A stretch of 36,685 nucleotides of DNA from Shouchella clausii (GTDB taxonomy: Bacteria; Bacillota; Bacilli; Bacillales; Bacillaceae_D). The stretch lies in assembly GCF_001598215.1 (NCBI RefSeq), contig NZ_BCXJ01000011.1:1-36685 (forward strand), in the 5' to 3' direction. The position numbers and the translations under genes are program-made. This document shows positions 6,131 through 36,423 of the stretch, one piece after another; positions within the stretch are counted from its first letter, which is position 1; every line of letters begins with the position of its first letter. The notes under the pieces were generated by a model. The model made no database searches. It saw only the letters and a list, made by a program, of their open reading frames with translations, and was not told the origin of the DNA.

Positions 6131-6223
6131 TGGCGGAGGAAGAGGGATTCGAACCCCCGCGCGGTGTGACCCGCCTGTCGGTTTTCAAGACCGATCCCTT
6201 CAGCCAGACTTGGGTATTCCTCC
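6131..6223 (-). tRNA. tRNA-Ser(UGA)
   Basis: A 93-nt class II tRNA on the minus strand. The acceptor stem is GGAGGAA/TTCCTCC with a G discriminator and an encoded CCA (6131-6133). The anticodon loop CTTGAAA gives anticodon TGA. There is a long variable arm (GGCGGGTCACACCGC) and a T arm with GGTTCGAATCC. B. subtilis carries a serine tRNA directly after serS in this region. Here it is about 24 kb from serS, next to tadA. Confidence 0.97.
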
Positions 6224-12417: not shown

Positions 12418-13140
12418 TTACAAGACTTTGCTTAAAAACGATTTTGTACGCTCGTTTTTCGTTTGTTCAAAAATCTCTACAGGCGTGCCCTCTTCAACAA
12501 GGCGGCCTTCATCCATAAAGAAAACGCGATCACCGACTTCCCGGGCAAACCCCATTTCGTGTGTGACTACGACCATCGTCATCCCTTCGAATGCCAACTC
12601 TTTCATGACAGAAAGGACGTCGCCGACAAGCTCAGGGTCTAGTGCTGACGTCGGTTCATCAAACAGCATCACTTTCGGATTCATTGACAACGCTCTTGCA
12701 ATCGCAACACGCTGTTTTTGCCCGCCTGACAAGCTTGCCGGGTACGCATCTGCTTTATCCCCTAAACCGACTTTCTCAAGAAGCTTCTTGGCTGCCGCAA
12801 CCGCTTCCCCTTTTTCAATGCCCCGCACTTTCAATGGTGCAAGCGTGATATTTTCCAATACCGTCTTGTGAGGAAACAAATTAAAATGTTGAAACACCAT
12901 GCCAACTTCCTGGCGCACAGCGTTAATATTTGTTTTCGGGTCGGCAATGTTGACGCCATCAATGACCACTTCCCCAGATGTAATGTCTTCAAGCCGGTTT
13001 AAACAGCGGAGAAACGTACTTTTCCCAGAGCCAGAAGGGCCGATGATGCAAACGACTTCCTTTTCGCGAATGTCCGTCGTAATCCCTTTTAGCACCTCAT
13101 GTTCTCCAAACGATTTATGCAAGTCATTTACTTTAATCAT
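12418..13140 (-). CDS. Polar amino-acid ABC transporter ATP-binding protein (GlnQ-like)
   Basis: A 240-residue ATPase of the polar amino acid family: Walker [10 protein letters not shown] (about 35-43), Q-loop [15 protein letters not shown], signature LSGGQKQR, Walker [15 protein letters not shown], switch [12 protein letters not shown]. This length and the FNLFPHKT segment are typical of GlnQ, ArtP and EhuA-type proteins. Its start codon overlaps the permease stop (ATGA), showing tight coupling. The substrate is not determined by this subunit. Confidence 0.93.
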
Positions 13141-13775
13141 GTCCGTTCCAGTCTCCGTTCTGTATAGCGTAATAAAAGAGAAGCCGGAATCGTGATCGCT
13201 AAGTAAAACAGGCAGACAAGCAAGTATGTATCAAAATACGAAGCAGATAAACCAGTATACGTTCTGCTTTGATACATTAAATCGGCAACGGCGATCGTCG
13301 ATAAAAGCGACGTATCTTTTAAACTGATAATAAATTGATTGCCGAATGGAGGAATCATCACTTTAATGGCTTGAGGCCAAATAATATAGCGCATTGTTTG
13401 ACTCCCTGTTAAACCTAGCGACCTGCCAGCTTCCATTTGCCCTTTGTCTATCGATTGTACCCCGCCGCGGACAATCTCGGCAATATAGGCGCCTGAGTTA
13501 ATCGCAATGACAAAAATCCCAGTGTAAAGCGGATCAAACCGTAAATCCAACAGACCTGGAATCCCGAAATGGATAAAAAAGATTTGCGCCAGCAAAGGCG
13601 TTCCTCGAATGGCTTCCACAAAAATCGCTGCGATTGCTCTCACGAACCCAATACGAGATAGGCGCATCAATCCGAAAATCGAGCCAACAATACTTCCTAA
13701 AAAAATACCGACGAGCGTAATTAAAACCGTGTATTTCAAACCTTCCCATAAAAAAGGCAATGCCCCAAAATCCAT
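13137..13775 (-). CDS. Polar amino-acid ABC transporter permease (GlnP-like)
   Basis: A 212-residue membrane subunit with about five helices. [17 protein letters not shown] opens the domain, [18 protein letters not shown] follows, and the ATPase-contact loop is [25 protein letters not shown]. Only one permease gene is present, so the channel is presumably a homodimer. The ATG at 13775 follows AGAGGTGAG. Confidence 0.92.
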
Positions 13776-13816: not shown

Positions 13817-14617
13817 TCACATGCCTTCTGGCCGTTCTCCGAAGTACTTTTCATAAATATCGCCGTACGTGCCGTTTTCCATGAGCGTCGCCAGCGCTTC
13901 ATTTACTGGTTCAACGAGGTCGGAGCCTTTTGGAAAAGCAATCCCATATTCCTCGCCTGTTAAACGCTCGCCTACCATTTTCATTTGCTCTTCTCCTTGT
14001 TGTTGCATGAAGTACTGCACATTTGGCATGTCATATAAAACTGCATCGACGTGGCCAGCAAGCAACGCTTGGTAGGCTTCTGTAATTTCAGGGTAAGCAT
14101 CCACTTGCGCTTCCGTATTATCTTCTAAATACGTTTGACTCGTCGATGACAGCCTCGTCGCCACTTTTGTGGACGAAGTAACGTCGTCTATTGATTGGAT
14201 CACATCATCCTCTTCTGCTACCGCTAGGACCAAGCCTGATTCATAATAAGGATCGGAAAAATCAATGTTTTCTTTACGTTCTTCAGTAATGGTCATCCCA
14301 TTAATGGCAGCATCATAACTTCCTTGTTCAATTCCTGACAACGCCCCGGAAAAATCCATTTGCTGAAATTCAACCGCAAAACCAGCTTCTTCAGCGATCG
14401 CTTTCATTAATTCGATATCAAAGCCTGTTAGTTCATTTGTCTCTAAATCAATAAACTCAAATGGGACAAAATTATTATCAGTAGCTACTTGGTAAGTTTC
14501 AACATTGTCACCATCCGCCCCGCCTGTATGATCGCTCGCCCCTGTTTCACTATTATTACAAGCTGCGAGGACGAGAACAGCACCTGCTACAAAGGCAGTC
14601 CCTAATCGTATGGTCAT
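13817..14617 (-). CDS. Polar amino-acid ABC transporter binding lipoprotein (GlnH-like)
   Basis: A binding lipoprotein of about 266 residues with signal peptide MTIRLGTAFVAGAVLVLA and lipobox LAAC. The SBP_bac_3 fold shows ETYQVATDNNFVPFEFID, LTGFDIELMKAIAEEAG, the ligand-carboxylate motif TEERKENIDFSDPYYESG, and YGIAFPKGSDLVEPVNEAL. The usual binding-loop TGTTS is replaced by RLSSTS, so the ligand may not be glutamine. The second ATG (14617) is preferred because AAGGGGG runs up to the first one (14623). It is the first gene of a three-gene operon lying next to the DoeA-led catabolic operon, so a role in ectoine or diaminobutyrate uptake is possible but unproven. Confidence 0.9.
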   Translation of the reverse strand: MTIRLGTAFVAGAVLVLAACNNSETGASDHTGGADGDNVETYQVATDNNFVPFEFIDLETNELTGFDIELMKAIAEEAGFAVEFQQMDFSGALSGIEQGSYDAAINGMTITEERKENIDFSDPYYESGLVLAVAEEDDVIQSIDDVTSSTKVATRLSSTSQTYLEDNTEAQVDAYPEITEAYQALLAGHVDAVLYDMPNVQYFMQQQGEEQMKMVGERLTGEEYGIAFPKGSDLVEPVNEALATLMENGTYGDIYEKYFGERPEGM

Positions 14618-14650
14618 AGCCATCCCCCTTTTTCTTTTTTTCTGTTAATT

Positions 14651-15444: not shown

Positions 15445-16890
15445 TTACCCATTATGGCGTAATTTAAAACAAACCACTTTCTGCTCTGTCATCTCTAATA
15501 TAGAAAACTTTACGCCTTCGCGCCCTAATCCTGATTGCTTTGTTCCTCCAAATGGCATCGCGTCAATGCGGAAATCGGAGCTATCATTGACCATGACACC
15601 GCCTGCTTCCAGCTCTCGAATTGCCTGAAAAACAGCATTCATATCCTCTGTAAATAAGCCCGCATGCAAGCCATATTCCGATTGATTCGCCCTTTCAATT
15701 CCCTCTGCAAGAGACTCAACCTTATAAAGCAAGACCACTGGCCCAAAAATTTCTTCTTTAGCGAGCATGCAGTCGTCTGGTACGTTTTCAAGCACAGTTG
15801 GCTCATAAAAAGCGCCGCTCCGCTTGCCGCCGCATAGAAGGACTGCGCCCATCCGCAGGGCGTCGTCTACCATGAACGCAACACGCTTTGCTTCTTTTTC
15901 AGATATAAGGGGTCCCATATCGGTCTTTTCAGATAGTTTCTCTCCCATCGTGTAAGCACAGGACTGCTTTACAAACAACTCTTTAAAGCGGTCATAAACC
16001 TCTGCATGGACGTACAAGCGCTGTACGCCTATGCAGTTTTGCCCCGCTGCCCAGAAGGCACCGCTCACATTCGCTTTTACAGCGTCTTCAATATGGGCAT
16101 CTTCGAGGACGATGACTGGTGAATTAGAGCCAAGTTCCATGCTTTTCTTCTTTAAACCTGCCTTTTTGGCAATTTCAAGGCCAGCCTCCATTCCCCCTGT
16201 GAAGGAAACCATTCGCACGTCAGGATGGGTGATAAGCACATCGCCAACTTCACCGCCCAATCCTGTCATAACGGACAATATCCCTTTTGGCAATCCTGCC
16301 TCCATAAAGGCTTCGGCTAACAAGAGTGCGCTTAATGGCGTTGCTGTTGCTGGTTTTAACACAATCGCATTGCCTGCCGCAATAGCTGGGCCAATCTTAT
16401 GGGCGACCAAATTCAGTGGATCGTTAAATGGCGTAATGGCGCCAATGATACCAAGAGGATGTCGTTCGTAATAGCCAAAGCGCCCTGCTCCTCCTGGGGA
16501 CTGGTCAAACGGGATCGTTTCACCCGTTACGCGGCGTGCTTCCTCCGCACATAATCGCAATGTCTCGACACACCGACCTGTTTCCTTCCGTGCTTCGCGA
16601 ATCGTTTTGCTTCCTTCTGTAGCAATGGTACGTGCAAACCGTTCTTTGTGGGCTTCAACAAAATCGGCAGCTCGATTTAAAATGGCCATCCGCTTATAAA
16701 CAGGAAGAGCAGCCGATGCTTTCGCCCCCTCTTTTGCACAAACAATCGCCTGCTCCATGTCTGTTTTGGATGCTTTTGGGACAATCGCGACCAACTGATC
16801 ATTTTCTGGATTCCGAACTTCAATCGTCTCGGTCCGGTCCACCCATTCGCCTGCGAGCAGCATTTGTTGCCGCCTTAGATCCAGTTTCAT
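15445..16890 (-). CDS. Aldehyde dehydrogenase family protein, candidate aspartate-semialdehyde-oxidising (DoeC-like role)
   Basis: A 481-residue NAD(P)-dependent ALDH with Asn156 in TPFNDP, Glu252 in MELGSNSP and catalytic Cys286 in GQNCIGVQR. The EEIFGPV and PFGGTKQSGLGREG motifs of the superfamily are near the C-terminus. The substrate is not readable from the sequence. Phosphonoacetaldehyde- and lactaldehyde-type ALDHs share the GSNSPVIV...GQNCIGVQRLYVH pattern. As the last gene of the operon led by the DoeA-like hydrolase, it could oxidise aspartate semialdehyde to aspartate, the job of DoeC in Halomonas; this is inference from context. The ATG at 16890 follows AAAGGAGGCGG, 13 bases after the previous stop. 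Confidence 0.88.
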   Translation of the reverse strand: MKLDLRRQQMLLAGEWVDRTETIEVRNPENDQLVAIVPKASKTDMEQAIVCAKEGAKASAALPVYKRMAILNRAADFVEAHKERFARTIATEGSKTIREARKETGRCVETLRLCAEEARRVTGETIPFDQSPGGAGRFGYYERHPLGIIGAITPFNDPLNLVAHKIGPAIAAGNAIVLKPATATPLSALLLAEAFMEAGLPKGILSVMTGLGGEVGDVLITHPDVRMVSFTGGMEAGLEIAKKAGLKKKSMELGSNSPVIVLEDAHIEDAVKANVSGAFWAAGQNCIGVQRLYVHAEVYDRFKELFVKQSCAYTMGEKLSEKTDMGPLISEKEAKRVAFMVDDALRMGAVLLCGGKRSGAFYEPTVLENVPDDCMLAKEEIFGPVVLLYKVESLAEGIERANQSEYGLHAGLFTEDMNAVFQAIRELEAGGVMVNDSSDFRIDAMPFGGTKQSGLGREGVKFSILEMTEQKVVCFKLRHNG

Positions 16891-16903: not shown

Positions 16904-17962
16904 TTAATGACTCTTCACGTTTCTATTCTCCTCCATAAAAAAGTGACAATCGATCAAATCACTTAATAAGGCATAGCCCGTTTCTTTCTTGCCTGCCCCT
17001 GCACCTGTCAACGTAATATCCCCCGCCAGGTCGCAACTGTACGTAATCGCATTCGTGGCTCCATCAATTGATGAAAGGGGATGGCTTGAATCAAGCAACA
17101 TCGGTTTGACAGCCGCCTTTACACCATCAGCAGTTCTCCGAATTGTGCCAAGCATTTTCCAGCGCTTGCCTTGCTGTTTCGCGGTCTGAATCTCGGCAGC
17201 TGACAACGTCTTTAAACCGACCCGTTTCACATCGTCAGGGGTAAGCGCTTCTCCCATAACGGTGTTGGCAAGAATGACGATTTTGTATAAGGCATCGTAG
17301 CCTTCCACATCACTTGTCGGATCCGCTTCAGCATATCCTTTTTCCTGAGCTTGTTTTAAAGCTTCAGAATAGGACATCCCGTCTTCCATCTGTGTTAACA
17401 TATAATTCGTTGTCCCATTTAGGATTCCGTTCACTTCCGTAAACGTATTTCCAATGAGTGCTGTACGGGCTAAGCGTAAAGCCGGCGTTCCGCTCATAAC
17501 CGTGCCTTCAAAACCAAGATAGACACCGTTTTTAGCCGCTAACTCTGACAGTTGTTTGTAAGCCATCGCGATCGGCCCTTTATTGGTCATCACTACATGC
17601 TTTTTTGCCGCAAATGCCGTTTTGCAGTGTGTGATGGCTGGTTCGCCTGTTTTGATATCCGTAAACGTCGCTTCAACAATGACATCTGCATTGGTCTGCA
17701 ATATTGTCGTCATTGCATCGAGACCCCTCACAAGCGTAGCGGAATCAGGATAGTCCTCTAATGAGCCAACAGTCGCTGCCAAATTGAGCACTTTAGCGAG
17801 ATCGAGACCATTTGGATCATACAATGACCCGATTTTAAAATCGGAAATCGCCACTACTTTAGGCGCCATTCCCGTTTGCTGCCTCGTCTTTTCATATTGT
17901 TTGGCCAAAATCTCTGCCAGTCCTTGGCCGACAACGCCAAAACCAAGAATCGCCAATTTCAT
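16904..17962 (-). CDS. Short homoserine dehydrogenase (no ACT domain)
   Basis: A protein of about 352 residues. The nucleotide-binding motif GFGVVGQG is at about 7-14. TNKGPIAMAYKQL, the catalytic region NGILNGTTNYMLTQM and EADPTSDVEGYDALYKIVILAN, with the conserved lysine in ALYKIV, identify homoserine dehydrogenase (aspartate semialdehyde to homoserine). The C-terminal ACT domain of the biosynthetic Bacillus enzyme is missing, so feedback inhibition by threonine is unlikely. It lies in a catabolic-looking operon rather than with thrC/thrB. A GTG at 17974 is buried in the ribosome-binding site AAAGGAG (17974-17980), so the ATG at 17962 is taken as start, at the slightly long spacing of 11 bases. 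It is separated by 8 bases from the upstream M20 gene. Confidence 0.88.
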   Translation of the reverse strand: MKLAILGFGVVGQGLAEILAKQYEKTRQQTGMAPKVVAISDFKIGSLYDPNGLDLAKVLNLAATVGSLEDYPDSATLVRGLDAMTTILQTNADVIVEATFTDIKTGEPAITHCKTAFAAKKHVVMTNKGPIAMAYKQLSELAAKNGVYLGFEGTVMSGTPALRLARTALIGNTFTEVNGILNGTTNYMLTQMEDGMSYSEALKQAQEKGYAEADPTSDVEGYDALYKIVILANTVMGEALTPDDVKRVGLKTLSAAEIQTAKQQGKRWKMLGTIRRTADGVKAAVKPMLLDSSHPLSSIDGATNAITYSCDLAGDITLTGAGAGKKETGYALLSDLIDCHFFMEENRNVKSH

Positions 17963-17970
17963 GGTCGCAC

Positions 17971-19161
17971 TCACTCCTTTTTATTTAAGGCATAGGCGCA
18001 TACGCCTGCCATAAGTGCCGCTCCTTTCGGAAGGCAAGCTTCATCGATTTGGAACTGTGGCGTATGCAAATCAAACTCGCCATGTCGAGGCTGGCAACCT
18101 AAGAAAAACAGCGCCGCTTTTGTCGTTTTGGCCATATGGGCAAAATCCTCACTTCCTAACCCGTAGGGCCCAGTAACAATGCGGTCAATTGGATAAAGAT
18201 GGCTGGCCACTTGTTTAATCAGCGCAATCGCCTCACTGTCATTCACAAGTGCCGGCTCGCCTCGTTCCACTGTACATCGGCCTTCACCGCCAAACACATT
18301 GGCCATAGAAAAGGCATTGCTTATTTCCTCCGTTAGTTTTTTGCGAACATCTTCGTTGTAACAACGGATCGTACCTTCTACTTCAACGATTTCAGGGATG
18401 ACGTTATTTGCTCTGCCGCCATGGATTTGGCCAATGCTAATCACGGCCGGTTCAAGTGGGGAGGAAAAGCGACCAGTCAGTCCGTAAATCGCCGGCAGCA
18501 CTTGCGAAAGCAGCCATATGGCGTCAACGCCTAAATGGGGATATGCTCCATGCCCCCCGCTACCTGTAATCGTCCCTTTAAATGCATCAAAGCTGGCCAT
18601 GCTAGCACCGCTATGAACTTGAATCGCATTCGGCCGCAGCCAAGGACACATATGAAGCGCAAAGGCGATATCGGCTCCAGCCATCGCCCCTGCTTCTATC
18701 ATATAGATAGCGCCAGTCTTCCCAGCTTCGTCCATCTTCTCTTCAGCTGGCTGAAACAAAAAACGCACTGTGCCATTTAGTAAGCCTGCCTGGTGCCGCT
18801 CGCTTAATATCGTCGCTGCGCCAAGTAAAATGGCCGTATGGGCGTCATGCCCACAAGCATGCATCGTCCCTTTTTTGATGCTAGCAAATGAATGTGGCTG
18901 TTCTTCGATCGGCAATGCATCCATGTCAGCGCGCAAAACCACGGTTTTTCCTTGCTTTCCTGCAAGTTCAGCAACGACGCCATATCCACCGACTTGCTCC
19001 GTTACGACCATCCCAGGCAAACGCCTAAGCACCTGTGCCACAAAAGCAGCGGTTTCCTTTTCTTGAAAGCTACGTTCTGGATGTTTATGCAGGTGGCGGC
19101 GCCATGTCATAAGTTGATCTTCCAGTTGCTCAGCCCGTGCCCGAATTCCCAACAGATTCAT
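17971..19161 (-). CDS. M20 family metallo-amidohydrolase, candidate N-acetyl-diaminobutyrate deacetylase
   Basis: A 396-residue enzyme of the aminoacylase/carboxypeptidase Ss1 group. Zinc-site motifs are MHACGHDAH (about 100-108), FQPAEEK, FALHMCPWL, and GLGSEDFAHM near the C-terminus. The dimerisation domain contains GSGGHGAYPHLGVDA. Such enzymes remove acyl groups from N-acyl amino acids. Second downstream of the DoeA-like hydrolase, it could deacetylate N-alpha-acetyl-2,4-diaminobutyrate, a step done by an unrelated zinc deacetylase (DoeB/EutE) in Proteobacteria. This substitution is inference; a general aminoacylase is the alternative. The ATG at 19161 lies 2 bases from the previous stop, so translation is coupled. 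Confidence 0.9.
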   Translation of the reverse strand: MNLLGIRARAEQLEDQLMTWRRHLHKHPERSFQEKETAAFVAQVLRRLPGMVVTEQVGGYGVVAELAGKQGKTVVLRADMDALPIEEQPHSFASIKKGTMHACGHDAHTAILLGAATILSERHQAGLLNGTVRFLFQPAEEKMDEAGKTGAIYMIEAGAMAGADIAFALHMCPWLRPNAIQVHSGASMASFDAFKGTITGSGGHGAYPHLGVDAIWLLSQVLPAIYGLTGRFSSPLEPAVISIGQIHGGRANNVIPEIVEVEGTIRCYNEDVRKKLTEEISNAFSMANVFGGEGRCTVERGEPALVNDSEAIALIKQVASHLYPIDRIVTGPYGLGSEDFAHMAKTTKAALFFLGCQPRHGEFDLHTPQFQIDEACLPKGAALMAGVCAYALNKKE

Positions 19162-19163
19162 AC

Positions 19164-20363
19164 TCAGGCCTCTATTTTGGCAGCCTCGAAAGCCTGCTGA
19201 AAGTCAGCAATGATGTCCTCTCCATCTTCAATTCCACACGAAACGCGAATTAACCCTTCAGGAATGCCCATGGCTGCACGCTCTTGTGGCGTGCATTCAA
19301 CATGGCTCGTTGTCCGCGCTGGTCCCACTGTCGTCTCAACCGCCCCTAAATTTGCAACTTTGTTGGCAAACGCTAGCTTTGGCAATAAGTGGCGCACCGT
19401 ATCGACACCGCCAGCAACAGCAAAGCTTAGCATGCCGCCGAAACCAGACATTTGCGCTTTGGCGATTTCGTGGTTAGGGTGGTTAACGAGGCCAGGATAA
19501 AATACGGTTTCGACCTCTTCCACCGTTTGCAAATAGACAGCTAGCTTCTGGGCATTTTCAGCTTGGCGTTTCACTCGTAATTCAAGTGTTTTCATGCCAC
19601 GCAATATCAAATAAGCAGCCCAAGGATCCATTGTTGCCCCGTTGATTTCCCGATAGTGGTAAATCGCTTCAATCAGGGACTCATCTAAACCGACGACAAC
19701 GCCTCCAAGGGCATCTGCATGGCCACCTAAAAATTTCGTTGCGCTATGGATAACGAGATCGGCGCCAAGAGTGAGTGGGTTTTGATTAACTGGAGTCGCA
19801 AACGTATTGTCGACGACAACTAGAGCGCCAACTTGTTTTGCAGCTACTGCACAAGCGCGGATGTCAGTAATTTTTACGGTCGGATTGGTTGGCGTCTCTA
19901 AATAAACGATCGTGCAGCCTTTGGCCGTTTCTTTTTTGATTTGCTCCACATTTCCTGTTTCACAAAAAACAACCTCGATATTCAACTTGGGCAAAAATTC
20001 AGTAAAAATTTTATTGGTGCCGCCATACGTATCTTTAATTGTCACTACGCGGTCCCCTGGTCTTAGAAACGTATAAAGCGTGTTGGAAATAGCCGCCATA
20101 CCCGTTGAAAAACTAGTTGCTGCATTCGCCCTTTCCAGCACTTTCACTTTATCTTCAAACGCTTGCACGGTCGGGTTTGTATTACGACCATAAATGTGGC
20201 CTTTTTTTCTGCCAACGGCCACTTCATACCATTCGTCCATATCGTCATAGCCAAAAGCCACACTCGGAATGACCGGAACTTGCGTCGCTCCATGGACCAA
20301 ATAGTCTTTTTCCCCTGCCCATACTGCTTTCGTAGCAAACTTGGCATTGTTCATTTTTGTCAT
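19164..20363 (-). CDS. PLP-dependent Cys/Met-metabolism (trans-sulfuration) family enzyme
   Basis: A 399-residue fold-type I enzyme. PLP lysine Lys210 is in HSATKFLGGH, the phosphate-site motif SFSTGMAAI is at about 84-92, the inter-subunit YGRNTNPT is at 58-65, and VVDNTFATP and RTTSHVECTPQER follow, as in cystathionine gamma-synthase, beta-lyase and methionine gamma-lyase. The sequence does not decide between gamma-synthase, gamma-lyase and beta-lyase activity. It is embedded between the DoeA-like hydrolase and the M20 deacylase rather than near met genes, so it may act on a C4 amino acid such as 2,4-diaminobutyrate or an activated homoserine. The ATG at 20363 with GGGGGG upstream is chosen over an ATG at 20408, which lies inside doeA. 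Confidence 0.9.
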   Translation of the reverse strand: MTKMNNAKFATKAVWAGEKDYLVHGATQVPVIPSVAFGYDDMDEWYEVAVGRKKGHIYGRNTNPTVQAFEDKVKVLERANAATSFSTGMAAISNTLYTFLRPGDRVVTIKDTYGGTNKIFTEFLPKLNIEVVFCETGNVEQIKKETAKGCTIVYLETPTNPTVKITDIRACAVAAKQVGALVVVDNTFATPVNQNPLTLGADLVIHSATKFLGGHADALGGVVVGLDESLIEAIYHYREINGATMDPWAAYLILRGMKTLELRVKRQAENAQKLAVYLQTVEEVETVFYPGLVNHPNHEIAKAQMSGFGGMLSFAVAGGVDTVRHLLPKLAFANKVANLGAVETTVGPARTTSHVECTPQERAAMGIPEGLIRVSCGIEDGEDIIADFQQAFEAAKIEA

Positions 20364-20382: not shown

Positions 20383-21573
20383 TTATGAAGCAGATGCATT
20401 TGGATCATTGGTCAACAGCTGCCGCGGAAAATCGCAAAGAAGCTCACAGCCATTTTCCGTCACCCGTACGGATTCGCTAATTTCGACCCCAAAGTCGTCA
20501 TACCACATGCCAGGGATGATATGGAACGTCATATTGGCTTGCAGCACCGTCTTATCTCCCTTTCTAATGCTTGCCGTATGTTCGCCCCAATCAGGTGGAT
20601 AATTCAATCCGGCTGAATAGCCAATACGTGCTTCTTTTTCGAGTCCGTAGCGCCCAATCGTCTTCCTCCAGACAGCCTCCACTTCTTCGCACGTGACTCC
20701 AGGCTTCATACATGCAAGCACTTCATTGAGCCCTTCAACGGCAATTTTGGCTATATCGACAACACGCTGCTGCGGCTTTCCAATTGTCACTGTTCTTGCG
20801 AGTGGTGCATGGTAACGTTGATAACAGCCAGCTAACTCAATAATGACTGTATCTTCGCTTGGATAGCGTTGGTCAGACCACGTAATATGAGGAGCGCTTG
20901 TTTTCACGCCTGACGGCAAGAGCGGGACAATCGCCGGATAGTCGCCGCCAAACTCCTCTGTCCCGGCAATTTGTGCGTGGTAAATTGCCGCTACGACATC
21001 GCTTTCTCGTGCGCTCGCGTTAATGGCATTCATGCCGGCATACATCGCCTTGGCCGCAATTTTGCCTGCGCATTTCATATAGTGGATTTCCATGTCTGAC
21101 TTGATGATGCGCACATAGTTGACAAGGTTAGTCGCGTCGACAAACCGGGCGTCTGGCAAGCTTTGCGTAAGACGCTCATGTGCTTTTGCCGTGTAGTAAT
21201 ACGTATCTAATTCAACACCAATGCGGCGGTTGCTTTGGCCAATATCTGCAAGAACTTTTGCGATAAAATCCATCGGGTGACGATCATTCGATTGGACATA
21301 ATGGTCAGGATACGGAATAATTCGTTCATGCATTAACCAAGTTGTCTGCTTAGCAACGTTCGCGTCCATGCCCCGCCCAATCCAAATCGGCTGGTCCTCA
21401 TCGATTAAGACGACTAGCATTTGATGGACATAAAAGCACCAGCCATTATAACCGGATAAATAATTCATATTGGCTGGGTCAGTAAGCAACAGCACGTCAA
21501 TGCCTTTTTCACTCATGCTTTCCTTTGTTTTTGCCAAGCGGACCTGATACTCATCCAATGTGAACGGGAACAT
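20383..21573 (-). CDS. doeA: Ectoine hydrolase-like protein (DoeA/EutD, M24 family without metal ligands)
   Basis: A 396-residue pita-bread (M24) protein. Its motifs match the DoeA/EutD ectoine hydrolase pattern: NMNYLSGYNGWCFYVHQ (35-51), IGRGMDAN (65-72), PDHYVQ, FGGDYPAIVPLLPSG (208-222), SAPHITW, ELAGCYQRYHAPLART (246-261), YPPDWGEHTASIRKGD (325-340). The five metal ligands of true aminopeptidases/prolidases appear replaced: the D-x-G...S-D region reads ELAG...HAP, the HG-GH region reads GYSAGLNYPPDW, and the IEPG glutamate is Ile353. Ectoine hydrolases open the ring to N-acetyl-2,4-diaminobutyrate. The ATG at 21573 follows AAAAGGAGG; an upstream ATG (21624) has no such site. It leads a five-gene operon with 2-20 base gaps. 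Confidence is high for family and moderate for substrate. Confidence 0.82.
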   Translation of the reverse strand: MFPFTLDEYQVRLAKTKESMSEKGIDVLLLTDPANMNYLSGYNGWCFYVHQMLVVLIDEDQPIWIGRGMDANVAKQTTWLMHERIIPYPDHYVQSNDRHPMDFIAKVLADIGQSNRRIGVELDTYYYTAKAHERLTQSLPDARFVDATNLVNYVRIIKSDMEIHYMKCAGKIAAKAMYAGMNAINASARESDVVAAIYHAQIAGTEEFGGDYPAIVPLLPSGVKTSAPHITWSDQRYPSEDTVIIELAGCYQRYHAPLARTVTIGKPQQRVVDIAKIAVEGLNEVLACMKPGVTCEEVEAVWRKTIGRYGLEKEARIGYSAGLNYPPDWGEHTASIRKGDKTVLQANMTFHIIPGMWYDDFGVEISESVRVTENGCELLCDFPRQLLTNDPNASAS

Positions 21574-21613
21574 GTAAACCAGCCTCCTTTTGAGTAGGTC
21601 ATTCGTTTCTTTC

Positions 21614-21875: not shown

Positions 21876-23294
21876 CTAGATTACCTTTTCTGTTTGCTTT
21901 ATACGAGCTGTTGTTTTATTCGGATGACGGTATATAATTGATTTTCCAAGTAAAGTTAAGATAATAGATAGTAGTGGCACGGTGAAGTTTAAAATAGCGT
22001 ATGGGGCATACTGAAAAACATGTACACCTAATGTAGCAAAGATAAATACCCCACATGTATTCCATGGAACAAAAACAGACGTCAATGTGCCTCCATCTTC
22101 TACTGCGCGCGATAAGTTTTTGGAATGCAAATTTTGGTCTTCGTATGTTTTTGCATACATTCTAGCCGGAACAACGATCGAAATATATTGTTCCGAACAA
22201 GAAACATTGGTAGCAAAACTAGAAAGAACCGTAGTGATAATTAAGCGTTTAGCTGTCTTTGCTAATTTTAAAATTTGCTGAACAATCGCCTGGAGCATAC
22301 CAGTGTTTTCAAGTACGCCTCCAAACGTCATCGCCACAATGGTTAAAGATACAGTGTACATCATTGCGTCGATTCCACCACCGTTAAATAGTTCATCTAC
22401 CATATGATTACCTGAGTCAATGATGTAACCATTCTGAAGCGTGGAAACAGCAATACTCAATCCATCTCCTTGTACATAAATTTGACTGAAAAATCCTAAT
22501 ACAATTCCCACAACCAATGCTGGGATAGCTGGTACTTTAAACATCACTAATACAATCACCGTAAGTGGTACAATTAACAGCCAGGGGGAAATCACAAAGT
22601 TATCTTGGAGTGAAGCCATTGTACTATCTATGTCAGCAAAATTTGCTCCATTTCCTTCTATATAATTTTGCCCAAGAAACCAATATACAATCAGTGCAAT
22701 CAAAAGTGCAGGAATCGTGGTTACAAGCATAAATTTGATATGTTCAAATAAGTCTGTCCCTGTTAAACCAGCAGCAAGATTGGTTGTGTCGGATAATGGC
22801 GAAAGTTTATCTCCAAAATACGCTCCTGAGATGACAGCACCAGCGATCATTGCCGCCGGTATTCCCATACTTAAACCAATCCCCATGCCAGCTACTCCAA
22901 TCGTAGCCATGGTAGACCATGAACTGCCAATAGCGAGAGTAACTACAGCGCATATGATGCAAATAGAAACTAAAAATAATGAAGGGCTCATTAATTTCAA
23001 TCCGTAAAAGACCATTGTCGCTACAATCCCCCCACCTATCCATGCACCGATCGTTAAGCCGACAAGAATAATAATGACAACGGCTGGTAAAGCAAGTTTA
23101 ATCCCCTTATACATGCTTTCTTCAATATCTTTCCATTTGAAACCTGCTTTTATCGCCATTAATGCAGCTGCAGCAGTTCCAATCATCAATGGAACATGCG
23201 GATCTCCTTCTAATCCCACGATTGTAACAGCCATTGCTGTAATCATTAGAATGAGTGGTAAGAGCGCTAACCAAAAAGAAATTTCTTTCTTCAT
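21876..23294 (-). CDS. NhaC-family Na+/H+ antiporter or Na+-coupled organic-acid/amino-acid antiporter
   Basis: A 472-residue integral membrane protein with about 11-12 helices. It carries NhaC-family landmarks: VGLTIGAWIGGGIVATMVFYG, IGSSWSTMATIGVAGMGIG, GAYFGDKLSPLSDTTNLA (about 163-180), SEQYISIVVPARMY and VPWNTCGVF. The family includes Na+/H+ antiporters important in alkaliphiles and the malate/lactate antiporter MleN. Lying directly downstream of an ornithine aminotransferase-glutamate dehydrogenase pair, it may instead exchange an amino acid or its product. The sequence alone does not settle this. The ATG at 23294 follows AAGGGGGAG. A 76-base gap with a cre-like site precedes it. Confidence 0.87.
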   Translation of the reverse strand: MKKEISFWLALLPLILMITAMAVTIVGLEGDPHVPLMIGTAAAALMAIKAGFKWKDIEESMYKGIKLALPAVVIIILVGLTIGAWIGGGIVATMVFYGLKLMSPSLFLVSICIICAVVTLAIGSSWSTMATIGVAGMGIGLSMGIPAAMIAGAVISGAYFGDKLSPLSDTTNLAAGLTGTDLFEHIKFMLVTTIPALLIALIVYWFLGQNYIEGNGANFADIDSTMASLQDNFVISPWLLIVPLTVIVLVMFKVPAIPALVVGIVLGFFSQIYVQGDGLSIAVSTLQNGYIIDSGNHMVDELFNGGGIDAMMYTVSLTIVAMTFGGVLENTGMLQAIVQQILKLAKTAKRLIITTVLSSFATNVSCSEQYISIVVPARMYAKTYEDQNLHSKNLSRAVEDGGTLTSVFVPWNTCGVFIFATLGVHVFQYAPYAILNFTVPLLSIILTLLGKSIIYRHPNKTTARIKQTEKVI

Positions 23295-23327
23295 TTTTCT
23301 CCCCCTTGTATATCTCTAGCCAATTCG

Positions 23328-23341
23328 GGCAAGCGCTTACA
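23328..23341 (-). promoter_or_regulatory. CcpA cre-like site upstream of the NhaC-family gene
   Basis: Minus-strand TGTAAGCGCTTGCC matches the catabolite-responsive element consensus TGWAANCGNTNWCA at all but the final position. It lies 33 bases before the start codon, inside the gap after the glutamate dehydrogenase gene, so carbon catabolite repression of the transporter is plausible. Confidence 0.5.
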
Positions 23342-23370
23342 TTTATGTAGTACTGTAAACAATGGAAAAG

Positions 23371-24651
23371 CTAAGCCCACCCCCTAAAATGTGCAGCTTC
23401 AGCTGTTTTTCGAATACCGACAATATAAGAAGCGAGGCGCATGTTTACTTGGTGTTTTTCGGCTGTTGCAAATACTTTATTCATCGAAGAAATAAGTACG
23501 TCACGCATACGATCAGCAACTTCCTCTTTCGTCCAGTAAAATCCCTGGTTATTTTGTACCCATTCAAAATAAGATACGGTTACTCCTCCAGCACTTGCAA
23601 GTACATCGGGAATAATTAAAATTCCTCTTTTACTTAAAATTTCTGTTGCTTCTAATGTTGTTGGGCCATTAGCTGCTTCCACAATAATAGAAGCTTGAAT
23701 GTTTGCAGCGTTGTCGGCAGTTAGTTGATTAGCAATAGCTGCTGGAACTAAGATATCACATTCTTTTTCCAGCAATTCTTTATTGGAAATTCGATTTTCA
23801 AATAAATTTGTTACCGACCCAAAACGGTCACGACGTTTGAGCAAGTAGTCAATATCCAATCCTTCATCATTATATAAAGCACCATGTGCATCGGAAATGC
23901 CAACAATTGTTGCTCCTTTTTCCTTCAAAAACTTAGCAAGAAAACTGCCTGCATTTCCAAACCCTTGGATAATAATCCGAGCATCTTTCACATCCAAGCC
24001 TCTTTTTCGTGCAGCTTCTTCGATGCATATTGTAACGCCTTTTGCCGTTGCTGTTTCCCGACCATGAGATCCACCAAGGACAATTGGTTTCCCGGTAATA
24101 AATCCAGGGGAGTCAAATTCACGGATAAGGCTATATTCATCCATCATCCATGCCATGATTTGTGCATTTGTAAATACATCTGGTGCAGGAATATCTTTAG
24201 TCGGACCAACAATTTGACTAATCGCCCGCACATACCCGCGACTTAATCTCTCAATTTCGCCTAAAGACATTTCACGAGGATCGCAAATAATGCCGCCTTT
24301 CCCCCCGCCATAAGGCAAGTCTACAATTCCAGCTTTTAAGCTCATCCACATCGATAATGCTTTCACTTCTGTCTCATTGACTTCTGGATGAAAGCGGACC
24401 CCACCTTTGGTCGGGCCAACAGCATCATTGTGCTGGGCCCGATAGCCTGTAAATACTTTTGTTTTTCCATTATCCATTCGGATTGGAATACGAACCGTTA
24501 GCATTCGTATTGGTTCTTTTAATAATTCATACATTCCATCTGGATAACCTAGATAGCCAACCGCTTCTTTAATAATTCTCTGTGTTGATTGAAAAATATC
24601 TAACTGGTCTTGCTCTTCTTTTGATTGAATATGCTCTTTTACTGCTTCCAT
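23371..24651 (-). CDS. rocG: Glutamate dehydrogenase (RocG/GudB type)
   Basis: A 426-residue NAD-type catabolic enzyme converting glutamate to 2-oxoglutarate and ammonium. Substrate-site and catalytic regions are GPTKGGVRFHP, MSLKAGIVDLPYGGGKGGI (catalytic lysines) and PAPDVFTNAQIMAWMMDEY. The Rossmann motif is IQGFGNAGS, with EAANGPTT near the C-terminus. Length matches B. subtilis RocG/GudB (424-427). It lies 28 bases downstream of the ornithine aminotransferase gene in the same transcript, so ornithine or arginine nitrogen ends as glutamate and is then deaminated here. Expression is probably driven by the sigma-54 promoter upstream of rocD. Confidence 0.95.
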   Translation of the reverse strand: MEAVKEHIQSKEEQDQLDIFQSTQRIIKEAVGYLGYPDGMYELLKEPIRMLTVRIPIRMDNGKTKVFTGYRAQHNDAVGPTKGGVRFHPEVNETEVKALSMWMSLKAGIVDLPYGGGKGGIICDPREMSLGEIERLSRGYVRAISQIVGPTKDIPAPDVFTNAQIMAWMMDEYSLIREFDSPGFITGKPIVLGGSHGRETATAKGVTICIEEAARKRGLDVKDARIIIQGFGNAGSFLAKFLKEKGATIVGISDAHGALYNDEGLDIDYLLKRRDRFGSVTNLFENRISNKELLEKECDILVPAAIANQLTADNAANIQASIIVEAANGPTTLEATEILSKRGILIIPDVLASAGGVTVSYFEWVQNNQGFYWTKEEVADRMRDVLISSMNKVFATAEKHQVNMRLASYIVGIRKTAEAAHFRGWA

Positions 24652-24679
24652 TTGTCACACCCCTTTTAATAGGCTTCCC

Positions 24680-25879
24680 TTATTTTGATAGAACATGGTT
24701 GATTTTTTCGATAGCCCAATCTAATTCATCTTTTGTGATTACAAGCGGTGGAGCAAATCGAATCGTATTTTCATGTGTTTCTTTACATAGGACCCCTGCT
24801 TCTTTCAACTGTTCACAATACTTGCGAACAGGATGATTGAATTCAACGCCGATAAATAATCCTCGTGCTCGAACGGCTATTAAATCATCATTATCAATTG
24901 CCCGTAATGCCGTTGTAAAATACTCCCCTAATTCTAAAGATTTCTCTGCTAAATTTTCTTCCTCAATTACTTCAATTGCTGCTAGAGAAACGGCACAAGC
25001 TAACGGATTTCCTCCAAAAGTAGATCCATGTGAACCTGGAGTAAATACATCCATAATTTCTTTATTAGCAGCAATAGCCGATACTGGAAAAACGCCGCCT
25101 CCCAATGCTTTTCCCATCACATAGATATCTGGAACGACATTTTCCCATTCACAAGCAAACATCTTTCCCGTTCGTGCAAAACCTGTTTGCACTTCATCGG
25201 CAATAAAGAGGATATGGTTTTCCGTACAGAGATCACGAATGGCTTGTAAGTAACCTTCAGGCGGGATAATGATACCTGCTTCTCCTTGGATTGGCTCTAC
25301 AATCACAGCCGCTGTATTAGGAGTGATTGCTTCACGAATGGCTTGCACATTCCCATACTCTATCTTTTTTATCCCTGGTACAAAAGGTCCGTAATTTTTG
25401 GTCGCTCCTGGATCATTCGATAAGGAGATCGCATTTAATGTCCGACCATGGAAATTCCCTTTTGCCGCAATAATTTCTGCTTTATTGTCTTCGACTCCTT
25501 TGACTTCATAAGCCCAGCGACGAGCTGCTTTAATTGCTGTCTCAACCGCTTCTACCCCTGTATTCATCGGCAACACTTTGTCTTTTCCTGTCAATTCTGC
25601 CATACGCTTGGTCCATGGACCAAGCTGGTCATTATGGAAAGCACGGGAAGTCAATGTTACTTTATCGGCCTGTTCCTTTAATGCCTGGATGATCTTTGGA
25701 TGGCGATGGCCCTGGTTCAACGCCGAATAAGCGCTAAGCATATCCATATATTTGTTGCCCTCAGGATCCTTCACCCACACGCCTTCAGCCTCAGCAATAA
25801 CAACTGGAAGCGGATGATAGTTATGTGCTCCATAAGCATTTGTTTGTTCAATGATGTCATCTGATTTTACAATCGTCAT
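24680..25879 (-). CDS. rocD: Ornithine aminotransferase
   Basis: A 399-residue class III PLP aminotransferase, the usual length for RocD (401). It begins [18 protein letters not shown], typical of ornithine delta-aminotransferase. It has [40 protein letters not shown] and PLP Lys257 in MGKALGGG. The reaction is ornithine plus 2-oxoglutarate to glutamate semialdehyde plus glutamate. The ATG at 25879 follows AAAGGAGGAA. It sits under a -24/-12 promoter with a RocR-like activator gene divergent. A side activity on the gamma-amino group of 2,4-diaminobutyrate is possible and would link it to the neighbouring ectoine operon; that is speculation. Confidence 0.94.
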
Positions 25880-25942
25880 TAAAAATTCCTCCTTTTAGGT
25901 GATGAATCACAATGGTTTCCATTTTGTACTCACTGTTTCTAT

Positions 25943-25960
25943 ATGCAAACTTCATGCCAA
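25943..25960 (-). promoter_or_regulatory. Sigma-54 (SigL) promoter of rocD
   Basis: Minus-strand TTGGCATGAAGTTTGCAT carries the GG (25957-25958) and GC (25945-25946) dinucleotides exactly 10 bases apart and closely matches TTGGCACNNNNNTTGCW. It lies about 65 bases upstream of the rocD start. Confidence 0.88.
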
Positions 25961-26000
25961 AGTTTAAATGCAGATGGTGAAACGGTTTCAAAAGGATTAA

Positions 26001-26050
26001 AGAAAAAAATTTTTGCATACCTTAAAGGATAAACGAAAAATTTTTTTGCA
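26001..26050. promoter_or_regulatory. Tandem upstream activating sites for the sigma-54 activator
   Basis: On the minus strand, two related blocks begin TGCAAAAAAATTTTTCG (from 26050) and TGCAAAAATTTTTTTCT (from 26017). Their TGCA anchors are 33 bp apart, about three helical turns. Each approximates the palindrome TGCAAAAA-TTTTTGCA and continues into similar sequence (TTTATCCTTT and TTTAATCCTTTT). They lie 55-105 bp upstream of the -24/-12 element, where a RocR-like hexamer would bind. Confidence 0.75.
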
Positions 26051-26074
26051 CTTTGTCTGTTTATCGATTAAACT
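26046..26074 (+). promoter_or_regulatory. Promoter of the sigma-54 activator gene
   Basis: TTGCAC (26046-26051), 17-bp spacer and TAAACT (26069-26074). The -35 overlaps the distal activator site, which predicts negative autoregulation. Confidence 0.6.
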
Positions 26075-26095
26075 CACCTTTAAAGGAGGGATATT

Positions 26096-27571: not shown

Positions 27572-27766
27572 GTGATCACCACGACAGGAGATTACGCTCG
27601 CCTCTCCAGGAAAGTCCGTGTGATACAGACGGTGGTCGACAAAATCGGCAACATTAATCAGACTGGTACGAATTTCCTGTCAAACAAGAAAAAATGCGAG
27701 TGGAGCATGATGATAAACAGTCATGGAACAACAGTATTAATGGATTTTCGAGAGGCAACTGTTTAG
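27572..27766 (+). pseudogene. Possible remnant of a short-chain dehydrogenase gene
   Basis: A 64-codon open frame starting at a GTG whose translation contains VIQTVVDKIGNINQTGTNF, EWSMMINSHGTTVLM and FREATV. In order, these resemble the middle of an SDR enzyme (helix before DILVNNAGTNF, then EW..MIN.NL.GTF.M..EA), with the NNAG core shortened. No Rossmann GxxxGIG start or YxxxK active site is present, and no convincing ribosome-binding site was found. It is either decayed DNA or a chance open frame; treat it as weak. Confidence 0.3.
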
Positions 27767-29451
27767 GAGTTAGGCGTTTGCATGTGGCGTTGGATCATCG
27801 ATATGCGAATGCTTAGATCAAGCAAAAAGACATCATCAGGATTAGCCAATGACAAATGAGTCAGCGCTTCAATTTTCCGAAGCCGATATAGCAGTGATTG
27901 GCGGTGCAAATGAAGAAAACGCGCTGTCTGTGTCACTTTGTTTTGGTTTCTTTGATAGGCGACAAATGTACCGACCAAGTCCATTTGCCTTTGCTCATCG
28001 TAGGCAAAAAGTGGTGCCGCATAGTCTAGCACCAGGCTTCGCAGTTCTGGTTCTTGCCCGATTTTATAGAGGACACGGTCAATGCGCGTATCTGTATAAA
28101 AAATCCGGCTTCCTTGCCCTTTCCTGCCGATGCCAAGCAGTAGTGCCTGTTTCGCTTCTTGATACCGGGCTTCAAACGCATAGGTGTTCATTTGCTGGTC
28201 ACCGATTCCCCACGTTATTTCTACATCGGGAAGCAAATGAGCCAAACGGCGATCAAGCAAATCAAGAAAACCATTAACCGTCGTCCGGTAATCGTCACAG
28301 GGAACGGCTAAATAAATCAATAGCTGCCCATCCATAAACGTCGACATCGTTTCACGTTCAACGGTTACGCCTGCATAGTAGATCTCTTCCTCGATATAAT
28401 GGACCATGCTTCGTTGCCACTCTTTAAATGAGGCTACTTGATCAGAACGGCTATACAGCTCTTCCATATTGTGCAGCATTCCTACTATCGCGATGTATGG
28501 AACGGAAACTTCGTATCCTAGCGCTGCAGCTCTTGTTTTTAGTTGTGCTTCCGTTTCAATCGAACCGTGAGACAAGTCGGCGACGAAATGATTGCGCATA
28601 CGGGCTTCCGTTTCTTGCACTGTGTTCTCTTGCAAAAACCAAAATGCAGCGGCTGTCCCGGCATGTTCAAGCAATATAAAGGCTGTCGCCAGCTCGCTTG
28701 AGGCCATTTTATCCGTGTTGACAGCAAATACATACCCTTGAATTTGCTCATTTGCTTGGATGATCGGCAATATGTGTACGTCTGTGCCATCTGTATGGAG
28801 CGTTTGAATTTTACGTTCGAGGGGGTGGTGCTCACTTTCCTGGCCGCTTGTGCGCATTTGTTTGTATGCTTTACTAACTAGGCCAACCACCGGTTCAGCT
28901 GCATGGCTTTTCCCTTTAATTCGCCCCTGGGCATCCGTTATGACAATGGGCACGGCGGCATAGCCAGCGACATGTTCAGCTAGAGCAGACAAGTGGTTTC
29001 CGGCAAGCATTAAGGACAAGAGTTCCTGTTGTACTTTTTGTGTGAATTGCCAATCGTCCTGCTTTGAATCAACAAGCTTGGCAGTAACCGCCTGTGTAAT
29101 GTCGGCAAAGCGGATCTCCCATGGCAAAAAAAGAATGGGAAACTGCGCATTCTCTGCAAGGGCGCGGACATCTTCGGATAATTCAAACACAAACCGGCCG
29201 ATCGCAACTGCAAGCCCAGACGCTTCCGACTTAATTACATCTTGCACAAAGGAATAAAACGCCTTTGGCTCCTGGGTGCAGCCGATGCCTGTCGTAAGAA
29301 CAAGCTCATTTTGCCTGATAAAGTTTTCCACTGGGGCTTCCGTAATCGAAACCCATTCGACTTGTCGGTAAGGCAACTGTTCTTGTGCAGTCTTAATGAT
29401 GGTAGGCTTCATAATATCCAATTCCATTACTTGTGCCAATGTAATTTTCAT
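27763..29451 (-). CDS. PucR-family transcriptional regulator
   Basis: A 562-residue regulator. The N-terminal PucR/purine-catabolism-like domain (about 1-125) contains VEWVSITEAPVENFIRQNELVLTTG and GLAVAIGRF. There is a central sensor region, and the C-terminal PucR helix-turn-helix domain contains YQRNQNKVTQTARFLHLHRQSLLYRLRKIE. Such proteins activate catabolic operons for purines, amino acids or other nitrogen compounds, usually nearby. Candidate targets here are its own nitrilase operon or the DoeA-led operon. The ATG at 29451 follows a G-rich ribosome-binding site (GGGGGGTGG). It lies 25 bases downstream of the nitrilase gene. It is convergent with the sigma-54 activator region. Confidence 0.9.
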   Translation of the reverse strand: MKITLAQVMELDIMKPTIIKTAQEQLPYRQVEWVSITEAPVENFIRQNELVLTTGIGCTQEPKAFYSFVQDVIKSEASGLAVAIGRFVFELSEDVRALAENAQFPILFLPWEIRFADITQAVTAKLVDSKQDDWQFTQKVQQELLSLMLAGNHLSALAEHVAGYAAVPIVITDAQGRIKGKSHAAEPVVGLVSKAYKQMRTSGQESEHHPLERKIQTLHTDGTDVHILPIIQANEQIQGYVFAVNTDKMASSELATAFILLEHAGTAAAFWFLQENTVQETEARMRNHFVADLSHGSIETEAQLKTRAAALGYEVSVPYIAIVGMLHNMEELYSRSDQVASFKEWQRSMVHYIEEEIYYAGVTVERETMSTFMDGQLLIYLAVPCDDYRTTVNGFLDLLDRRLAHLLPDVEITWGIGDQQMNTYAFEARYQEAKQALLLGIGRKGQGSRIFYTDTRIDRVLYKIGQEPELRSLVLDYAAPLFAYDEQRQMDLVGTFVAYQRNQNKVTQTARFLHLHRQSLLYRLRKIEALTHLSLANPDDVFLLDLSIRISMIQRHMQTPNS

Positions 29452-36307: not shown

Positions 36308-36423
36308 GCCCGGCAACGTCCTACTCTCGCGGGAGGAAGCCTCCAACTACCATCGGCGCAAAAGAGCTTAACGGCCGTGTTCGGCATGGGAACGGGTGTG
36401 ACCTCTTTGCCATTGTCACCGGA
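36308..36423 (-). rRNA. rrf: 5S ribosomal RNA
   Basis: The minus strand carries the 5S consensus: CAAAGAGGTCACACCCG, GTTCCCATGCCGAACACG, GTTAAGCTCTTTTGCGCCG, ATGGTAGTTGGAGG and GCGAGAGTAGGACG. The ends are set by pairing of CCGGTGAC with GTTGCCGG, giving about 116 nt; the exact termini are estimates. Open frames read across it are artefacts. Confidence 0.97.

Follow-up and report, generated by a model that had tools for sequence, protein, structure and literature searches.

A putative ectoine degradation operon of Shouchella clausii with a cystathionine gamma-synthase-family enzyme proposed for the 2,4-diaminobutyrate step

Organization of the locus

The stretch analyzed here (the window) comprises 36,685 nucleotides of the Shouchella clausii contig NZ_BCXJ01000011.1, and its subject is a minus-strand gene encoding a homolog of the ectoine hydrolase DoeA/EutD, together with the four genes that follow it (Table 1). 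Ectoine, a major osmolyte and nutrient, is broken down by a pathway that was established in Proteobacteria. After eutD come genes for an enzyme of the cystathionine gamma-synthase (CGS) family, an M20 amidohydrolase, a homoserine dehydrogenase (HSD), and an aldehyde dehydrogenase (ALDH). From the spacing of the five genes (gaps of 19, 2, -4, and 13 bp), we predict that they are cotranscribed as one operon; a GGGGGG site stands at the start of the CGS gene, and scans for consensus promoters and terminators gave no signal above chance. We propose, at a probability of roughly 40%, that this operon degrades ectoine through a CGS-family enzyme that takes 2,4-diaminobutyrate (DABA) to homoserine, and from there to aspartate. 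The sequences show the order of the genes, their families, the conservation of catalytic residues, and co-occurrence; every reaction of the pathway is inferred.

TABLE 1 Features of the window discussed in the text
Feature	Position	Strand	Remark
eutD, DoeA-type ectoine hydrolase homolog	20383..21573	minus	396 aa; M24 fold without canonical metal ligands
Ribosome-binding site of eutD	21583..21590	minus	AAAGGAGG, ahead of the ATG at 21573; direct reading
CGS-family pyridoxal phosphate (PLP) enzyme, proposed to use DABA	19164..20363	minus	NF006097 (PRK08249), 732.5 bits
M20 amidohydrolase, proposed N-acetyl-diaminobutyrate deacetylase	17971..19161	minus	2 bp past the CGS gene
HSD	16904..17974	minus	NF004912 (PRK06270); 4-bp overlap with the M20 gene
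ALDH, proposed to convert aspartate semialdehyde to aspartate	15445..16890	minus	13 bp past the HSD gene
ATP-binding cassette (ABC) importer, amino acid-type substrate-binding protein	13817..14623	minus	weak candidate for ectoine import
ABC importer permease	13137..13775	minus	GlnP 193.6 bits; EhuC 177.1 bits, cutoff 196.95
ABC importer ATPase	12418..13140	minus	GlnQ 340.9 bits; EhuA 317.0 bits, cutoff 345.4
PucR-type regulator	27763..29451	minus	directly precedes eutD in many relatives, separated from it here

The CGS-family protein passes the NF006097 cutoff of 600 bits and reaches 380.7 bits against the methionine gamma-lyase model TIGR01328 (cutoff, 549.7), and the HSD scores 455.6 bits against a cutoff of 373. 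The M20 protein clears the general amidohydrolase cutoff of TIGR01891 (339.4 versus 153.75 bits) and falls below that of DoeB2 (NF038260, 212.7 versus 550 bits).

The window's EutD is a divergent member of the DoeA family

The preliminary description of this DNA had reported an ectoine hydrolase-like M24 protein between positions 20383 and 21573, with the motifs GWCFYVHQ, IGRGMDAN, FGGDYPAIVP, and YPPDWGEHT. The open frame is there, on the minus strand, and its translation contains all four motifs; the plus strand of the same interval, in the same frame, is interrupted by stops. Because AAAGGAGG (21590 to 21583) precedes the ATG at 21573, 396 aa is the likely length of the protein rather than the 413 aa of the mechanical open reading frame.

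By sequence, EutD matches the Pfam families Peptidase_M24 (129.7 bits, far beyond chance) and Creatinase_N (73.7 bits). Scored against ectoine hydrolase and prolidase models, a comparison that the preliminary description had proposed, it ranks the ectoine hydrolase model TIGR02993 first with 500.6 bits, ahead of DoeA_2 (249.3) and archaeal PepQ (115.5), but does not reach the TIGR02993 equivalog cutoff of 613 bits; on the same model a Priestia megaterium relative scores 530.9 and a Rhizobium DoeA 819 bits. Among solved structures, the best sequence matches are those of Halomonas elongata DoeA (6twk, 6yo9, and 6twj; 405.7 bits), with a prolidase at 112.4 bits. An AlphaFold2 model of the protein (pLDDT 90.8, built on 28 sequences) agrees with the H. 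elongata DoeA entries, including substrate- and product-bound ones, at template modeling (TM) scores of 0.93 to 0.95 and 45 to 46% identity, and with the other 45 listed entries, which are peptidases, creatinases, and the like, at 0.67 to 0.85. When six proteobacterial sequences from five loci were aligned to the window, 116 of their 162 invariant positions were kept in its EutD.

The position of the protein within the family was read from a tree of 66 rows, made of fetched relatives and two peptidases as the root, from which 19 named near-duplicate loci were left out. Since the tree holds relatives and root only, it gives the window's place within the family and not its membership. The window's EutD lies within a Bacillota set of 38 rows (support 93, below the threshold of 95), and the proteobacterial sequences are set apart from it (support 88). 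Within its own genome it is the one M24 gene of this kind, the next best matches being 25% identical; the Shouchella tritolerans protein is 100% and the Shouchella rhizosphaerae protein 97% identical to it.

The preliminary description also held that every canonical metal ligand of the M24 fold had been replaced. All five positions are indeed changed: two M24 paralogs encoded in this genome carry D, D, H, E, and E at the sites occupied here by E246, P257, Y319, I353, and S366, the change at 246 being acid for acid (Glu for Asp). The trait is, however, common to the EutD/DoeA family, and ligand loss as a peculiarity of this protein was rejected. Among 239 relative rows, which include same-genome copies from two collections, P257 and Y319 are found in all, E246 in 238 (one has Lys), and Glu at 353 in none; position 366 is Ser in 197, Thr in 41, and Asp in one. 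E246 aligns with position 255 of the H. elongata DoeA chain, and so Glu is the residue there in 238 of the 239 relatives. Mais et al. in 2020 reportedly described Glu255 of H. elongata DoeA, the equivalent of E246, as the residue that forms a covalent intermediate.

The outcome that the preliminary description named as counting against it, a best match to prolidases or creatinases with an intact D, D, H, E, E site, is not what we found. DoeA is the closest protein in sequence and in predicted fold, and the reading as a prolidase or creatinase whose metal site has decayed was rejected on sequence, on the metal positions, and on the fold match. The DoeA/EutD assignment of the preliminary description is thus well supported. 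The window gene is probably a divergent but ordinary ectoine hydrolase, and from its sequence and model we regard ectoine hydrolase activity as very likely.

EutD and the CGS-family enzyme occur together in Bacillales

A genome scan for EutD relatives found 140 matches, the best of which make up 78 loci; among those listed, the common layout in Bacilli is eutB-pucR-eutD-eutC-CGS-M20-HSD-ALDH plus a transporter. Co-occurrence was surveyed in 397 Bacillales genomes, drawn evenly, with EutD called at an E value of ≤1e-60 and at most four first-look candidates scored per genome. EutD was found in 119 genomes and the NF006097 CGS family also in 119; both occurred in 113, EutD only in 6, CGS only in 6, and neither in 272 (Fisher value of 2.5e-83, relatedness ignored). 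None of 14 control genomes had an NF006097 match. In all 113 loci (113/113) the two genes lie on the same strand and no more than 4,284 bp apart.

Neighborhoods were read from up to 20 kb around EutD, with one or two loci for each of the 119 genomes and 131 in all, the window's own locus being read from the window. Fifteen of the fetched stretches were shorter than 19.5 kb, and absence below means absence from the fetched stretches. The neighborhood maps cover matches spanning at least 45% or, in other maps, 50% of the query; the CGS locus and residue counts cover matches of at least 50% identity, a bound that removes the Clostridia type described below; and the residue rows of HSD, ALDH, and M20 start at 40, 40, and 38% identity. 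One locus with a 34% M24 match (L153) was not used. On this basis the loci of the 119 genomes contain CGS in 113, PucR in 101, ALDH in 97, HSD in 92, M20 in 79, eutC in 40, eutB in 39, and EutE in none (0/119). HSD adjoins ALDH in 92 of 92 genomes, and 91 of these also have CGS.

A Bacillota-wide sample of 398 genomes contained NF006097 in three, the window's own genome and two others. Both of the latter have a 50 to 52% EutD match with one in-frame stop, and in one of them an EutD fragment lies on the CGS contig.

Relatives' clusters also carry other genes of ectoine metabolism. Plasmid pBMV_1 of P. megaterium ATCC 14581 (L131) encodes, according to its record annotation, EutB and EutC. Its EutB scores 435 bits on NF005680 (cutoff, 413) and falls short on TIGR02991 (388.9, cutoff 413.35), and the EutC-type cyclodeaminase scores 500.7 on NF006141 (cutoff, 408) and falls short on TIGR02992 (425.7, cutoff 471.65). 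The pBMV_1 cluster is complete and has a gene for the PLP synthase PdxS between eutB and eutD. One cluster (L061) holds EhuB (260.2 bits, cutoff 190.9). In another (L186, 13969-16189) an ectABC set, with frames for an acetyltransferase, EctB (over its cutoff), and ectoine synthase, lies beside the degradation genes. In Proteobacteria, Rhizobium etli plasmid pRetNXC12d (L134) carries an EutD-like gene, M20, an AsnC-type regulator, and duplicated importer genes, as well as a second M24 gene that is annotated as two pieces.

A CGS-family enzyme proposed to replace the transaminase

The six genomes with EutD but no CGS bear on what the CGS-family enzyme does. In four of them (G259, G361, G300, and G381), a class III aminotransferase stands beside ALDH and no HSD is present in the fetched locus, an arrangement found in none of the 113 CGS-bearing loci. 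The ALDH of G259 and G361 is of the cluster type, 62 to 64% identical to that of the window, and their aminotransferase is closest to PRK07480, below its cutoff, and 37 to 38% identical to the enzyme that follows ALDH in a Paracoccus eut cluster. Near eutD, G381 carries a further aminotransferase, which is PRK07480-like. Class III aminotransferases occur elsewhere in four CGS-bearing loci, where they are HemL-like (L172), EctB (L186 and L187), and ArgD (L191). Counting any aminotransferase in the locus, the frequencies are 4 of 113 with CGS versus 4 of 6 without (P = 1.2e-4, uncorrected for relatedness, and the latter four share one family code).

A second context is the Klebsiella quasipneumoniae plasmid NZ_CP092403 (L133, 5890-25056), on which eutC, a eutB-like gene, ehuABCD, a regulator, doeA, and doeB are followed by a CGS gene. 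Its product passes the NF006097 cutoff with 651.1 bits and is 58% identical to the window's protein. The gene annotated there as an aminotransferase has a GntR domain and is an EnuR-like regulator, and neither tblastn nor the (incomplete) gene table gave an ssd/ALDH or atf/class III aminotransferase in 19 kb of this plasmid. The cluster is flanked on either side by annotated transposase genes, and 29 plasmid records contain a CGS gene at an identity of at least 99%.

In three EutD-less genomes of one genus (L143, L146, and L148), CGS, HSD, and ALDH form a unit followed by an amino acid permease, which may serve to import and use free DABA or homoserine. In five further loci (L144, L145, L147, L149, and L150) an NF006097 gene is present, with EutD, HSD, and ALDH all absent from the fetched stretch; that of L144 is near genes that, judged by eye, resemble those of a dehydrogenase complex.

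The catalytic residues of the family are well kept. K210 (the PLP lysine), Y58, R60, Y113, D185, S207, T209, R373, G115, R238, and E239 are invariant in 159 of 159 CGS rows. The protein thus shares the PLP lysine and its surroundings with the methionine gamma-lyase/CGS family (PF01053; active-site numbering of methionine gamma-lyase in PMC9307983), which also includes its closest solved relatives, the methionine gamma-lyases. It differs in belonging to NF006097, in the invariant Arg238-Glu239, and in having Gly in place of the Cys of the methionine gamma-lyase YGC motif, which is seen in all 159 rows and shared by three further members of the family in this genome. Asn338, considered as a mark of the family, was weakened as a candidate, being Ser in 10 and His in 2 of the 159 rows and present in another family member of the genome. 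The HSD motif residues, including the lysine and carboxylate positions, are the same as in the genome's two other HSDs. The M20 metal-site motifs compared (the C-terminal motif left out) are retained, as are the cysteine and glutamate of ALDH, and the motif residues of HSD, M20, and ALDH are largely conserved.

Proposed pathway and competing explanations

In the pathway that we propose, metal-free opening of the ectoine ring by EutD would yield N-acetyl-2,4-diaminobutyrate, from which the M20 enzyme, in the role of EutE/DoeB, would remove the acetyl group to give DABA. The CGS-family PLP enzyme, in the role of DoeD/Atf, would then expel the gamma-amino group of DABA as ammonia and add water, forming homoserine, which HSD would oxidize to aspartate semialdehyde and ALDH would convert to aspartate. 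Judging from these gene neighborhoods, it is somewhat better than an even bet that DABA is the substrate of the CGS-family enzyme, which would thereby take over from the DoeD transaminase. That its product is homoserine is a more tentative proposal, which we prefer because HSD is in the locus; an aminotransferase would yield aspartate semialdehyde directly, making HSD unnecessary, and HSD is missing from the four aminotransferase loci. Extended to the bacilli as a whole, the proposal would be that they degrade ectoine through an undescribed PLP-dependent DABA gamma-hydrolase, homoserine forming and ammonia releasing, drawn from the transsulfuration family and coupled to an oxidative HSD, which replaces the DABA transaminase in 113 of 119 EutD-bearing Bacillales and whose family also occurs in the Klebsiella plasmid cluster. 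We put this forward as the most doubtful of these proposals.

Several observations weigh against the homoserine pathway. HSD and ALDH are both missing from the fetched locus in 22 of the 113 CGS-bearing genomes and M20 in 40, and in 14 loci EutD and CGS are accompanied by none of M20, HSD, and ALDH, so that in such loci these steps must be encoded elsewhere or be different. The aminotransferase swap has exceptions: G349 has EutD, ALDH, and HSD without CGS, G328 has neither CGS nor an aminotransferase in its loci, and the aminotransferase that adjoins ALDH in G300 and G381 is a gamma-aminobutyrate transaminase over its NCBIfam cutoff, the ALDH itself being a distant one (34%). On an EutD tree of 120 of the 131 loci, CGS changes five times and the ALDH-linked aminotransferase twice, with too few independent pairs to reach significance. 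In principle, the EctB-like transaminase encoded in the window's genome could convert DABA to aspartate semialdehyde. Finally, the clusters without HSD in Klebsiella, Clostridia, and Alkalibacterium favor 2-oxobutanoate as the product instead.

This last point belongs to an explanation with the same operon and the same substrate, in which the CGS-family enzyme is a DABA gamma-lyase that releases 2-oxobutanoate and two ammonia molecules and HSD and ALDH serve another flow. Gamma-elimination is the reaction of methionine gamma-lyases, and it is to these that the closest solved structures belong. Two Clostridia metagenome-assembled genomes and Alkalibacterium pair a different, methionine gamma-lyase-like member of the CGS family with M20 and EutD, without HSD or ALDH; methionine gamma-lyase was the best model in the two of these clusters that were scanned (468.6 and 464.8 bits, short of the cutoff of 666). 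The Klebsiella cluster, too, has its CGS gene without HSD or ALDH. However, 91 of 113 genomes have HSD and ALDH at the CGS locus, and in the three EutD-less genomes the two are joined to CGS as a unit; given this tie a 2-oxobutanoate product would leave HSD and ALDH without a role. We consider the lyase unlikely. As an observation on distribution, methionine gamma-lyase-like enzymes lie in or near the EutD clusters L090, L096, L101, and L111 of Clostridia, Alkalibacterium, and Sporolactobacillus (L096 was outside the model scan); they are perhaps a separate recruitment.

The CGS-family enzyme might also use N-gamma-acetyl-DABA from EutD directly, with release of acetamide. The CGS family handles O-acetylhomoserine, of which N-gamma-acetyl-DABA is the nitrogen analog, and the 14 loci with EutD and CGS alone among these enzymes would fit such a shortcut. 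H. elongata DoeA yields alpha- and gamma-acetyl-DABA at 2:1 (PMC5924519). On the other side, acetamide is, in our chemical judgment, a poor leaving group, M20 shares the locus in 73 of the 113 CGS-bearing genomes, and in Klebsiella the CGS gene is paired with an annotated DoeB deacetylase, all of which makes direct use of the acetylated compound quite improbable.

Less probable again is that the operon serves to degrade some other small molecule, its EutD-like protein having a function other than ectoine hydrolysis. The score below the TIGR02993 cutoff would allow it, as would the Shouchella clusters, which are without eutB, eutC, and an Ehu/Ueh importer over its cutoff; against this, fold and sequence match DoeA, with the 116 of 162 proteobacterial invariant positions kept, EutB, EutC, and EhuB homologs lie in relatives' clusters, and eutB and eutC homologs are found elsewhere in the window's genome. 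That the HSD-like enzyme oxidatively deaminates DABA itself, the amino analog of homoserine, and the CGS-family enzyme has another role is very improbable, given lysine and carboxylate positions like those of the genome's two other HSDs and fetched loci with CGS but no HSD in 22 of 113 genomes and with HSD but no CGS in 1 of 6.

Relation to described ectoine pathways

The window's EutD resembles H. elongata DoeA (TIGR02993; PDB 6TWJ, 6TWK, and 6YO9) in fold (TM score of 0.95, 46% identity), in the metal positions that are changed, and in the Glu equivalent to position 255. It differs in scoring under the equivalog cutoff and in grouping with Bacillota (at the support of 93 noted above), apart from the proteobacterial sequences. 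The proteobacterial pathway, eutDE-asnC-ssd-atf or doeABCD, uses EutE, Atf/DoeD, and Ssd/DoeC (PMC5924519, PMC8739950, and PMC7192451). The predicted operon has in common with it the EutD-type ring opening and the final aldehyde dehydrogenase. Unlike it, the operon has M20 rather than EutE, a CGS-family enzyme and HSD with no class III transaminase, and PucR with no EnuR seen.

The preliminary description had held that an operon of this sort would extend ectoine degradation to Firmicutes, but this was already in print as a putative assignment. Tentative clusters of pucR-eutBCD-atf/abgB-thrA-adh, without EutE, have been reported in Bacillota (PMC13188858, April 2026), and doeA was reported in 14 genomes of the Terrihalobacillus/Aquibacillus group, doeB in two strains, with Sinobaca cited as an organism that both makes and consumes ectoine (PMC10203224, 2023). 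The gene order of the 2026 clusters is that of our relatives, abgB, thrA, and adh corresponding by order to M20, HSD, and ALDH. The gene at the CGS position is called atf there, an equation that we make from gene order alone, and "cystathionine" appears nowhere in the text available. That main text, as available, does not name Shouchella, whose operons as read here are without eutB and eutC, found elsewhere in the window's genome. Among the matches listed from open-licence PMC papers, none linked the NF006097 family to ectoine and none gave a CGS-M20-HSD-ALDH reading of an ectoine operon. The window's EutD is thus of a kind already suspected in bacilli, and the alternative DABA step, as predicted from sequence, is the part that would be new. 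If the CGS-family enzyme does act on DABA, the Gram-positive ectoine pathway would run through different chemistry, a family labeled only "cystathionine gamma-synthase family protein" would gain a function, clusters read as transaminase bearing would need reannotation, and ectoine use in Bacillota, tentatively predicted in 2026, would become concrete and testable enzyme by enzyme.

Other ectoine-related genes and neighboring features

Elsewhere in the window's genome there is an ectoine synthase gene with an adjoining DABA transaminase (EctB by position), and because of this pair the genome probably both makes and degrades ectoine. A divergent eutC-eutB pair lies on another contig (L278, G000:C5:196400-203400); the eutB homolog scores 448 bits, over the cutoff of 413, with the eutC homolog beside it. 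The pair adds to the ectoine reading and is a possible hydroxyectoine branch. No match to EutE (TIGR02994) was found in the whole genome, which has three homoserine dehydrogenases in total.

The importer genes following the operon are not of the EhuABC kind by score, EhuA and EhuC being below their cutoffs (Table 1) and EhuB absent at an E value of ≤1e-30; the substrate-binding gene adjoins the operon in other Shouchella loci too. PucR adjoins eutD in several other Shouchella loci, unlike in the window, where genes for an NhaC antiporter, a glutamate dehydrogenase, an ornithine aminotransferase, and a sigma-54 activator lie between it and the operon (21876-27487). The window also contains minus-strand RNA genes for a large signal recognition particle RNA (5120-5386), a tRNA (6134-6223), and a 5S rRNA (36308-36423).

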